Virus record (IMG/VR): IMGVR_UViG_3300035703_000439
Location: 1-21,377 of that record
Strand: one strand, 5' to 3'
Origin: a virus
DNA: 21,377 nt
Numbering within the stretch: position 1 is the stretch's first letter; every line of letters starts with the position of its first letter. Positions 8,490-21,172 of this stretch are shown piece after piece. The translations under genes and the position numbers were made by a program. The notes under the pieces were generated by a model, which was given only the letters and a program-made list of their open reading frames with translations, made no database searches and was not told the DNA's origin.

Positions 8490-8507
8490 ACGCTCTTTGA
8501 CAATTTA
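8490..8507 (+). promoter_or_regulatory. rrn-like boxA antitermination motif, copy 1
   Basis: CGCTCTTTGACAATTTA closely matches the E. coli rrn leader boxA with its flank (TGCTCTTTAACAATTTA), the binding site of NusB-S10. It lies about 60 nt after the promoter at 8406, the position expected for a leader signal. Confidence 0.65.
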
Positions 8508-8510
8508 CAA

Positions 8511-8673
8511 AACAATTTGTATGCCGGAACAGGTATACGGTGGTGAGGACTAAGCCAATACGGATAGGGTGTGTAATGCTAATAAGCACCTTTGCGCTCA
8601 TGGTGAAACCCACCAGTGCTGGGCAGCGCAACGTAACAGCACAATGTTGGCTCGAATCCAACTACAAATTGTT
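8511..8673 (+). ncRNA. Structured RNA with T-arm and 11-bp closing helix, no CCA
   Basis: AACAATTTGTA (8511-8521) pairs perfectly with TACAAATTGTT (8663-8673). Directly before the 3' strand is a T-arm, GTTGG-CTCGAAT-CCAAC (8646-8662), stacked as in a tRNA. The interior is about 125 nt where a tRNA has about 41, and holds TGCT-AATA-AGCA and TTGCGCT/AGCGCAA hairpins. It follows boxA copy 1. I find no tmRNA tag frame and no rRNA similarity; class unknown. Confidence 0.5.
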
Positions 8674-8696
8674 TTTTAACTTGTTGAAAAAAGTTG

Positions 8697-8763: not shown

Positions 8764-8781
8764 ACGCTCTTTGACAGTTTA
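8764..8781 (+). promoter_or_regulatory. rrn-like boxA motif, copy 2
   Basis: CGCTCTTTGACAGTTTA differs from copy 1 at one base and lies just downstream of the promoter at 8697. Confidence 0.65.
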
Positions 8782-9012: not shown

Positions 9013-9053
9013 AAAACTAGTGCAGGAGGTAGACTCCGTAAGTCACAAGCTAC

Positions 9054-9105
9054 ACGGTACTGCTTGATCGAAGCAGCTAAGTCAACCAAGCGATGGTTAG
9101 AGCCA
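9054..9105 (+). ncRNA. Two-hairpin element, family B copy 1
   Basis: Starts ACGGTACTGC; hairpin CTGCTT/AAGCAG (9060-9076), linker CTAAGTC, hairpin AACCA/TGGTT (9084-9098), end AGAGCCA. It shares its unpaired parts with 9665-9715 while the helices differ with compensation. It ends in CCA but has no acceptor or T-arm. Confidence 0.5.
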
Positions 9106-9117
9106 AAAACATATTGT

Positions 9118-9194
9118 TGCGGGGTAGAGAAGTGGTCATCTCGCCTGGCTCATAACCAGGAAATCGAAGGTTCGAATCCTTCCCAACGCAACCA
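9118..9194 (+). tRNA. tRNA-fMet-like (CAT), imperfect acceptor stem
   Basis: D-stem GAGA/TCTC has the A11-T24 pair of initiators; loop CTCATAA; T-arm GAAGG/CCTTC; ends ACCA. The acceptor pairs only TGCG/CGCA and GG/CC around a 1x2 internal loop, one base longer on the 3' side. Possibly a degenerate initiator copy. Confidence 0.8.
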
Positions 9195-9203
9195 AAACAA
9201 TGT

Positions 9204-9280
9204 TCCCTCTAAGCTATCCAGGTGATGGTGCTCGGCTGTTAACCGAGAATGAGGCTGGTTCGAGTCCAGCAGAGGGAGCC
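9204..9280 (+). tRNA. tRNA-Asn(GTT)
   Basis: Acceptor TCCCTCT/AGAGGGA, anticodon stem CTCGG/CCGAG, loop CTGTTAA, discriminator G, encoded CCA. The D-stem GCTA/TGGT uses G-U pairs. Confidence 0.93.
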
Positions 9281-9288
9281 AAAAATAT

Positions 9289-9362
9289 ATCGGTGAAGTG
9301 TTATGGTAGCACGGCGGTCTCCAAAACCTCAAGCCAGAGTTCGACTCTCTGCACCGGTGCCA
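9289..9362 (+). tRNA. tRNA-Trp(CCA)
   Basis: Acceptor ATCGGTG/CACCGGT, anticodon loop CTCCAAA, T-arm CAGAG/CTCTG, discriminator G and CCA. One mismatch in the anticodon stem. Confidence 0.92.
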
Positions 9363-9375
9363 AATAAACTATTGT

Positions 9376-9451
9376 TTCTAGTTAGCTCAGTTGGTAGAGC
9401 GTCTGACTGTTAATCAGAATGTCGCTGGTTCGAGCCCAGCACTAGGAGCCA
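9376..9451 (+). tRNA. tRNA-Asn(GTT), second copy
   Basis: Acceptor TTCTAGT/ACTAGGA, loop CTGTTAA, T-arm GCTGG/CCAGC, discriminator G, CCA. Quite different in sequence from the copy at 9204. Confidence 0.93.
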
Positions 9452-9457
9452 AATAAT

Positions 9458-9565
9458 TTTCAAAGTCTGGCGGCGGTTGACCGTTCCAGATAAGTGTTGA
9501 AGCGTTGGCTGGCACCAGCGTGGAGCCAAAGAGTAAGAGATGCCAGTCTCTGCTGTGCTTTGAAA
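9458..9565 (+). ncRNA. Four-helix RNA with exactly complementary hairpin loops (kissing-loop candidate)
   Basis: Closing helix TTTCAAAG (9458-9465)/CTTTGAAA (9558-9565). Hairpin 1 TCTGG/CCAGA (9466-9490) with inner CGG-TTGA-CCG. Hairpin 2 CGTTGG-CTGGCA-CCAGCG (9503-9520). Hairpin 3 AGAGA-TGCCAG-TCTCT (9536-9551). The 6-nt loops of hairpins 2 and 3 are exact reverse complements. It fills the whole interval between tRNA-Asn and tRNA-Pro and has no CCA-tailed acceptor. Class unknown. Confidence 0.55.
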
Positions 9566-9574
9566 TATAACTTA

Positions 9575-9652
9575 CAGTGTGTAGCTCAGTTTGCGTAGAG
9601 TGCTCGCCTTGGAAGCGAGAGGCCGAAGGTTCAAATCCTTTCACACTGACCA
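9575..9652 (+). tRNA. tRNA-Pro(TGG)
   Basis: Acceptor CAGTGTG/CACACTG, anticodon stem CTCGC/GCGAG, loop CTTGGAA, T-loop TTCAAAT, encoded ACCA. Confidence 0.93.
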
Positions 9653-9661
9653 AATTACAAT

Positions 9662-9715
9662 ACGGTACTGCAACTTGAAATGCAGCTAAGTCGCTCGAAC
9701 ACGAGAGCAGAGCCA
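9662..9715 (+). ncRNA. Two-hairpin element, family B copy 2
   Basis: ACGGTACTGC start, hairpin CTGCA/TGCAG (9668-9685), linker CTAAGTC, hairpin CTCG-AACA-CGAG (9694-9705), end AGAGCCA. Pairs change relative to 9054-9105 while linker and ends stay the same. Confidence 0.5.
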
Positions 9716-9723
9716 AAAACATA

Positions 9724-9794
9724 CGGAGCGTGGGCAGGATGGTAATGCCTTTTGCAGATAGCCTATCTGCTAAATAAAGTATGGGAGATAGGTT
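9724..9794 (+). pseudogene. Possible tRNA 5' part cut off by the endonuclease gene
   Basis: A D-arm-like hairpin, GGCA/TGCC, is followed by an anticodon-arm-like hairpin GCAGA-TAGCCTA-TCTGC (GCC in the loop, but A at position 33). No T-arm or acceptor 3' strand follows; the endonuclease Shine-Dalgarno (GGGAGAT) and start come next. It could be a tRNA-Gly remnant or a leader hairpin. Confidence 0.4.
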
Positions 9795-10160
9795 ATGAAT
9801 GTAAATGAAAAAGGTAATACAGGCTTAATAAAAGTTATGTCTGACTTGTATGATAAAGGTTATCATTGTTTTACACCGTTTGATGATTATAGTCCAGTAG
9901 ACTTAATTGCAATGGATAAGCAAGGTAATATTAAAAGACTACAAGTTAAATATCGCTCATTGCTTCCTAGCAAAGGAACTTATGAAGTTGCAGGGCGTTC
10001 TATGGTAAACGGAAAAGGCGTCAATATAGACAAGAGTTTGATTGACGGTTGGGCTGTTTATTTAGAAGAAGAACAGAAAGTAACATACTTGCCTGTTAGT
10101 ATAATGGAAACCAAGAATGTTCATTATATTAAACCAGGTGAGATACAAGATATTTGGTGA
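9795..10160 (+). CDS. PD-(D/E)XK homing-type endonuclease
   Basis: 121 aa. The order N-terminal E-K-G-N-T-G (5-10), helix, then P-V-D-L-I-A (35-39) and Q-V-K-Y-R (50-54) matches the small PD-(D/E)XK endonucleases related to I-Ssp6803I, which is encoded in a group I intron of a cyanobacterial tRNA-fMet gene. The catalytic D and the Q-x-K lysine are present. ATG 9795 follows GGGAGATAGGTT. Its TGA stop (10158-10160) lies inside the 5' acceptor strand of tRNA-Ser, and a tRNA-like remnant precedes it, so it probably entered the island as a tRNA-targeting mobile gene. I see no group I intron around it. Confidence 0.75.
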   Translation: MNVNEKGNTGLIKVMSDLYDKGYHCFTPFDDYSPVDLIAMDKQGNIKRLQVKYRSLLPSKGTYEVAGRSMVNGKGVNIDKSLIDGWAVYLEEEQKVTYLPVSIMETKNVHYIKPGEIQDIW

Positions 10161-10247
10161 GATGCCTGAGAGGCCGAAAGGAGCGGTTTGCTAAACCGTC
10201 GTAGGGCGAAAGTTCTACCCAGGGTTCGAATCCCTGTCTCACCGCCA
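10156..10247 (+). tRNA. tRNA-Ser(GCT), class II
   Basis: Acceptor GGTGAGA/TCTCACC, anticodon loop TTGCTAA, long variable arm, discriminator G and CCA. Its first five bases double as the end of the endonuclease gene. Confidence 0.93.
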
Positions 10248-10260
10248 TAAGCACACTAGC

Positions 10261-10315
10261 ATCTGGCTAGTCCAGACCGTAAGGTTAACGGTGACAAGCA
10301 GGGAGAGACCTGCAC
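10261..10315 (+). ncRNA. Three-hairpin element, family A copy 1
   Basis: Hairpins TCTGG-CTAGT-CCAGA (10262-10276), CCGT/ACGG (10277-10291) and GCAGG-GAGAGA-CCTGC (10298-10313), then ACAAGA and a short spacer to tRNA-Ala. The second copy lies at 10596-10656. Confidence 0.55.
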
Positions 10316-18008: not shown

Positions 18009-18159
18009 CTGTTTTCACATGCAATAATAAAGTGTAAGGGTGATATATACCTTGGGCGACAGCAGTAAGATAGAGTGAAGTACAAACTCCGTATCTGTTA
18101 GTAGTTTAGGTACAAGGTGGGGTTGGTTCGAGTCCAACAATTATTGCAGTTGAAAACAG
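18009..18159 (+). ncRNA. Structured RNA with perfect T-arm and two-part closing helix, no CCA
   Basis: CTGTTTTC (18009-18016)/GAAAACAG (18152-18159) and TGCAATAAT (18020-18028)/ATTATTGCA (18140-18148). A perfect T-arm, GTTGG-TTCGAGT-CCAAC (18122-18138), stands one base before the 3' strand, as in a tRNA. The interior includes AGATA-GAGT/ACTC-CG-TATCT. Same architecture as 8511-8673. The CTGTTTTCAC start also resembles 17034-17043. Confidence 0.5.
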
Positions 18160-18164
18160 AGTTT

Positions 18165-18239
18165 TGCCTTGTAGCTCAGTGGTAGAGCAAAGAGCTGATA
18201 ACTCTTAGGTCGAGTGTTCAATTCACTCCAGGGCAACCA
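18165..18239 (+). tRNA. tRNA-Ile(GAT)
   Basis: Acceptor TGCCTTG/CAGGGCA, stem AAGAG/CTCTT, loop CTGATAA, T-arm GAGTG/CACTC, ACCA. Confidence 0.94.
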
Positions 18240-20622: not shown

Positions 20623-20704
20623 GCCTCGGTAACCCCCCTCGCTACGAACGAGGAGAAAGGTAACTGGATGGAAGATGCAGGTTCGAGTCCTGTCCGAGGC
20701 TCCA
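20623..20704 (+). tRNA. tRNA-Arg(ACG) apparently lacking a D-arm
   Basis: Acceptor GCCTCGG/CCGAGGC, discriminator T, CCA; T-arm GCAGG/CCTGT. The anticodon arm CCTCG-CTACGAA-CGAGG follows after only TAACCCC, leaving no D-arm, and a 23-nt region separates it from the T-arm. Confidence 0.75.
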
Positions 20705-20722
20705 ATTAAAAGGAAACGTGTC

Positions 20723-21172
20723 TTGAAAATCGAATATCGAACAGGGGACTTGTTTAGCACAGATATTTGGACTATAGTTCATGGTTGTAATGCACAAGGA
20801 GTAATGCGCTCCGGTGTTGCCAAAACAGTGTATGAACAATATCATGCAGCATATACAGAGTATCGAGCACAATATCTCAAAGAAAACAAGTTGCAGTTGG
20901 GATCCACTATTAGTGTAGAGGTCAACGGTAAACTGATTGTAAACGCTATTACTCAAGAATTTTACGGTAGAGACGGTAAACGTTATGTCAGCTATGATGC
21001 AGTTGCTGAAGCTATGCACAACATCAATCGCAGTTGGCGTGATAACAGCGCAGAAACACATATTGCAATGCCACAGATTGGCGCTGGTCTAGGTGGAGGC
21101 GACTGGACGGTAATTGCTGCTATTATCGAAAGTGAAATGCAAGACATTCAGCCAGTGGTATATGTGCTTTAA
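20723..21172 (+). CDS. Macro-domain protein (ADP-ribose binding)
   Basis: 149 aa from TTG 20723, chosen because AAAAGGAAACGTGTC supplies the Shine-Dalgarno and longer versions run into tRNA-Arg. Macro-domain landmarks: D9 in the first loop, H-G-C-N-A-Q-G-V-M-R-S-G-V-A (20-33), and M-P-Q-I-G-A-G-L-G-G-G-D-W (116-128). Proteins of this group bind ADP-ribose and some remove the phosphate from ADP-ribose 1''-phosphate or reverse ADP-ribosylation. In a phage it might counter ADP-ribose-based defence or recycle NAD; this is inference. The HAD-like gene follows within 10 nt. Confidence 0.87.
   Translation: MKIEYRTGDLFSTDIWTIVHGCNAQGVMRSGVAKTVYEQYHAAYTEYRAQYLKENKLQLGSTISVEVNGKLIVNAITQEFYGRDGKRYVSYDAVAEAMHNINRSWRDNSAETHIAMPQIGAGLGGGDWTVIAAIIESEMQDIQPVVYVL

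Follow-up and report, generated by a model that had tools for sequence, protein, structure and literature searches.

As judged from sequence comparison, two short elements in the tRNA array of a large uncultured phage are members of a real and strongly conserved RNA family, previously unlisted and absent from Rfam, with copies in dozens of further phages, cultured Gordonia phages among them. Comparison of aligned copies shows that the element, about 50 nt long, is a conserved RNA folded as a three-way junction, with stems P1, P2 and P3, closed by a short P1 (GG/CC) and laid out as GGUA, hairpin P2, YUAARUC, hairpin P3 and AGAGCC. Both copies lie in the window (the whole stretch of DNA analysed here), a virus record that spans 21.4 kb and contains many tRNA genes.

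Two copies of the element in a viral tRNA array

ARAGORN found 43 tRNA genes in the window, and the RecA-like gene of the window is closest to those of phages with genomes of 340-490 kb (among them XbC2, CBB, GAP32, Phosso and Atu_ph07). A first-pass annotation of this DNA had described two elements with shared sequence blocks and compensated helices, and both were recovered in the places given there, with ACGGTACTGC, CTAAGTC and AGAGCCAAAAACATA in common and with tails reaching the ends listed in Table 1. The helices of copies 1 and 2 differ with compensation, CTGCTT/AAGCAG versus CTGCA/TGCAG in one hairpin and AACCA/TGGTT versus GCTC/GAGC in the other. The motif pattern has two matches in the window, versus 0.04 expected from shuffles. 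Folding of the two elements as single sequences was not significant (z about -1 to -1.5), so the proof of the structure comes from their relatives. An element at 9458, which had been thought related, gave no match to the family model with filters off and is not retained as kin.

Table 1. Positions of the two copies, their parts and their neighbours in the window.
Feature	Position	Strand	Remarks
Separate small conserved element CTAGTGCAGG...CCGTAAGTCACAAG	9017..9049	+	same order in several other contigs
Copy 1, three-way-junction core	9056..9104	+	R1 match 67.0 bits; pair counts
Copy 1 P1	GG 9056-9057 with CC 9103-9104		U9058 can face G9102
Copy 1 P2	9060-9065 with 9071-9076
Copy 1 linker CTAAGTC	9077-9083
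Copy 1 P3	9084-9088 with 9094-9098
Copy 1 linker AGA	9099-9101
Copy 1 unpaired A/C-rich tail AAAAACATA	9105..9113	+	family consensus AAACACATA
tRNA-Met gene	9118..9189	+	ARAGORN; 13 nt downstream of copy 1
tRNA-Pro gene	9575..9652	+	ARAGORN; 11 nt upstream of copy 2
Copy 2, three-way-junction core	9664..9714	+	R1 match 64.6 bits; pair counts
Copy 2 P1	GG 9664-9665 with CC 9713-9714
Copy 2 P2	9668-9672 with 9681-9685
Copy 2 linker CTAAGTC	9686-9692
Copy 2 P3	9693-9696 with 9705-9708
Copy 2 linker AGA	9709-9711
Copy 2 unpaired tail AAAAACATA	9715..9723	+	identical to copy 1 tail

Extent and covariation of the RNA family

When IMG/VR was scanned with a loose pattern, most matches were due to chance, and a few, picked out by hairpin filtering, had both hairpins of the window copies; 28 stretches matched a stricter pattern and 21 matched a subtype pattern. 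The covariance model R1, built from an alignment of 29 sequences, gave 54 unique matches in uncultured viral contigs (22-70 bits; one to four per record), a count in which the seed sequences match by construction and which includes one doubtful member, L124 (26 bits, weak P3). Pattern matches judged to be due to chance scored at most about 16 bits. The same core is present in 34 Gordonia phage records, between two genes and mostly under no annotated feature, and since these phages are cultured, the copies in them make the family directly testable. No Rfam family matches the element, and a bacterial genome collection yielded one weak match, L205 (15.7 bits, judged to be chance), and none that was convincing. 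R1 gave no match in 13 cultured phages, some of which are giant phages (T4, Atu_ph07, Phosso, CBB, GAP32, XbC2, XaC1, V07, S-CRM01 and four others), under stricter filters by which weak matches could be lost, and blastn of the window element or the family consensus against cultured phages retrieved nothing meaningful. Outside the Gordonia phages, a pattern scan for a longer P1 gave only matches of 13 bits or less beyond the known loci and the doubtful L124. A partial, brief literature search found no description of such an element. The recurrence of a strongly covarying family in phages of very different genomes and contexts implies a selected function.

In the 29-sequence alignment, 94.3% of the cells pair compared to 76.7% in shuffles, double-sided changes occupy 69 cells compared to 18.8 in shuffles, and pairing falls to about 40% when the partners are slid by one column; the structure was read from these same 29 sequences, which favours it, and a model-fitted alignment of more copies agrees. 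Covariation was detected at nearly every pair of P2 and P3, and bases 1 and 5 of the 7-nt linker are C-G in 20 of the 29 sequences, U-A in nine and mixed in none. The junction itself (GGUA, YUAARUC and GAGCC) is near-invariant, with GGUA present in 52 of 54 copies, whereas the arms and loops differ between copies in both length and sequence. As the GG/CC of P1 is invariant in the arrays, covariation is uninformative for this stem there, and P1 lacks any further pair in 39 of the 54 array copies. P1 of the Gordonia phages spans about 12 bp, and its arms differ between phages yet pair, with six pairs changed on both sides, most of these double changes stemming from one phage, Crocheter. Judged by these compensated arms, P1 is proven to be real.

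The idea of a discrete two-hairpin RNA with compensated helices was thus upheld, while the tRNA-like CCA end proposed with it was not. GAGCCA is similar to the 3' ends of neighbouring tRNA genes, but the terminal A is unconserved, as 37 of the 54 copies have A after GCC, seven have T, seven G and three C, and in the Gordonia phages this stretch lies inside P1, where pairing runs past the CC. The tRNA model RF00005 leaves the element unmatched at E-values up to 5 and does match the neighbouring tRNAs. Conservation in many phages with covariation indicates a kept structure, not decay, and a CCA-ended tRNA-like RNA or decayed tRNA gene is an extremely improbable identity for the element.

Genomic setting and neighbouring elements

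Most R1 matches lie within tRNA arrays, always on the tRNA strand, and all 78 neighbouring tRNAs within 400 nt share the strand of the element. Array cores typically start 4-13 nt past a tRNA and end 9-14 nt before the next, with a few neighbouring tRNAs 27-46 nt off. The unpaired tail AAACACATA follows most array copies; an ACACATA tail occurs in only six of 431 tRNA leaders, so it is not a general tRNA leader. Near-identical cores were found in different settings (for instance L134 and L135; copy 2 of the window with L137, L140 and L141), and L126, a close relative of the window, carries its copy elsewhere in an array that has been reshuffled, implying that the element moves as a unit, like the tRNA genes of such arrays. 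In the Gordonia phages it lies downstream of a stop codon and ahead of the next gene, and its core is fixed, nearly unchanged with loops included, while the flanks and the downstream gene vary. In the Gordonia phage Duffington the core occupies positions 50783-50831 of MK376957.1. The element is shown to be a small interchangeable unit in spacers, which separate tRNAs in the large uncultured phages and a pair of protein genes in the Gordonia phages. No consistent downstream gene, as would be expected for a riboswitch, was found, the neighbours being different tRNAs or other RNA elements and the downstream genes of the Gordonia phages being different.

Other recurrent elements are found nearby. 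The separate element directly upstream of copy 1 (Table 1) is an associated neighbour outside the core; it conforms to CTAGYGCAGG-hairpin-CCGTAAGNCRCAAG, has compensating changes in its outer stem (GCG/CGC versus GTG/CAC), is also present in L141, L135, L052, L127, L133, L148, L244, L245, L246 and L192, and often lies a few nt upstream of the three-way-junction element. A third element, a hairpin that contains AACACGGCAGNCYCATTGCGTAG and has outer stems with compensating changes (L154 at 6790, L052, L029, L106 and L148-L152), lies between tRNAs, sometimes directly 3' of the three-way-junction element, and has no Rfam match in L154. A fourth repeat, GTGACAAGCRGGGAGAGACCTGC (window positions 10291 and 10631, and L148), is likewise located between tRNAs and has differing upstream hairpins. 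Motifs resembling the boxA of ribosomal operons (CGCTCTTTGACARTTTA) occur in the window at 8491-8507, 8765-8781 and 17933-17949, upstream of array segments, with four matches at up to three mismatches versus 0.15 expected.

Past copy 2, at positions 9725-10247, the start of a tRNA-Ser gene is cut off; a PD-(D/E)XK endonuclease gene (PF11645) and then an intact tRNA-Ser come next, an arrangement that would suit insertion of a homing-type cassette. Long complementary arms, seen by eye around tRNA-like or unknown RNAs of 85-150 nt at 8505-8680, 16990-17130 and 18001-18165, are reminiscent of the processing stems of ribosomal RNA operons. The window also encodes a macro-domain protein (20675-21172) that weakly matches the macro domain of Thoeris ThsA and, beside the tRNA genes, a PP-loop family protein (PF01171; 5800-6393) that is possibly a TilS-like tRNA lysidine synthetase.

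Candidate functions and comparison with known RNAs

On predicted grounds, we consider it plausible, though at less than even confidence, that the element is a self-cleaving or processing element acting in cis, and the favoured version, by analogy with known RNAs, is that it is most likely a candidate small self-cleaving RNA. As a module for cleavage or processing it would act on a polycistronic transcript, with the junction as its active centre and the long transcript being cut between neighbouring genes; the candidate cut, from the hammerhead layout, would fall after GGUA. Location between same-strand genes, the lack of a constant neighbour, a near-invariant junction with free arms and occurrence in very different phages together suggest either an activity residing in the RNA or a universal host factor. 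The cleavage reading draws on the theta ribozyme precedent beside phage tRNAs (PMC10879173), on the covariation of P2, P3 and the linker pair and the compensated P1 of the Gordonia phages, and on the concentration of conserved letters in the junction rather than in the variable arms and loops. Further arguments for it are the strand agreement and tight spacing of the 78 tRNAs, the fixed core of the Gordonia phages despite differing next genes, and the 7-, 3- and 1-nt linkers with GUA shared with type III hammerheads. Against cleavage stand the absence of essential hammerhead bases and of any match among the Rfam ribozyme families, the low number of copies (one to four per record) and the fact that tRNA array processing needs no ribozyme. 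The conserved single-stranded tail of the array copies is left unexplained by self-cleavage.

This tail, which looks like an RNase E site and adjoins the following tRNA, would suit a structured spacer that is recognised by a nuclease of host or phage origin (such as RNase III, E or P) or that serves as a nuclease-resistant insulator, giving processing without catalysis of its own, as would the placement of the element between tRNAs and between protein genes. We regard such a spacer as conceivable and somewhat doubtful, since conservation falls mainly on unpaired junction letters, which nucleases of the RNase III/E/P type usually do not need, and the same junction is found in Gordonia phages and large tRNA-rich phages. 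If not catalytic, the element would be a clue to the ways in which phages handle long tRNA transcripts, whether by processing or by protecting them; if catalytic, it would be one more on the short list of natural self-cleaving RNAs.

Release from the array as a stable small RNA with a role in trans, such as that of a decoy drawing off an RNA-binding protein or a tRNA-directed host defence, has a parallel in species 1 and 2 of T4, stable non-tRNA RNAs encoded by rnaC and rnaD in the T4 tRNA cluster, and would agree with the nearly unchanged Gordonia core, loops included. The T4 RNAs differ in being 119 and 139 nt long, however, R1 has no match in the T4 genome, and the freely varying arms and loops of the array copies leave no common seed or recognition loop, which makes a trans-acting role unlikely. 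The put antitermination RNAs of HK022 are also two-hairpin phage RNAs, act in cis and have their sites near early promoters. A put-like element that prevents termination or resists Rho, keeping RNA polymerase moving through arrays, would fit their length and untranslated nature, the boxA-like motifs upstream of the window array and the two-hairpin architecture. It is nevertheless quite improbable, given the tandem and mid-array copies and the single copy in a protein-coding Gordonia operon; R1 had no match in HK022 positions 30000-40000, a stretch in which put sites are unannotated.

For the self-cleavage reading, a close parallel in setting is provided by the theta ribozymes, minimal HDV-like and tRNA-associated self-cleaving RNAs of gut phages that lie next to phage tRNAs (PMC10879173), as the small structured element described here adjoins phage tRNA genes. 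HDV-like ribozymes adopt a nested double-pseudoknot fold and cleave at the 3' end of the tRNA, whereas the element is a plain three-way junction, which explains the covarying pairs, and typically starts 4-13 nt after a tRNA; the HDV-like covariance models in Rfam gave no match to it.

A close parallel in geometry is the type III hammerhead, which has linkers of 7, 3 and 1 nt and a GUA triplet at the cleavage-site position. Linkers of these lengths also join the three stems of the element, with the circular order unchanged; GUA stands at the corresponding position, so that an NUH site is present, and, as in hammerheads, the 7-nt linker contains a covarying pair. An assignment to the hammerheads was rejected because the CUGANGA and GAAA core is absent, the element having YUAARUC in place of CUGANGA and AGAG on the GAAA side, and the Rfam hammerhead models gave no match at E-values up to 5. 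Tentatively, the element may represent a putative new class of small self-cleaving ribozyme in tRNA-rich large phages and Gordonia phages, with a hammerhead-like three-way-junction geometry built around a different core.
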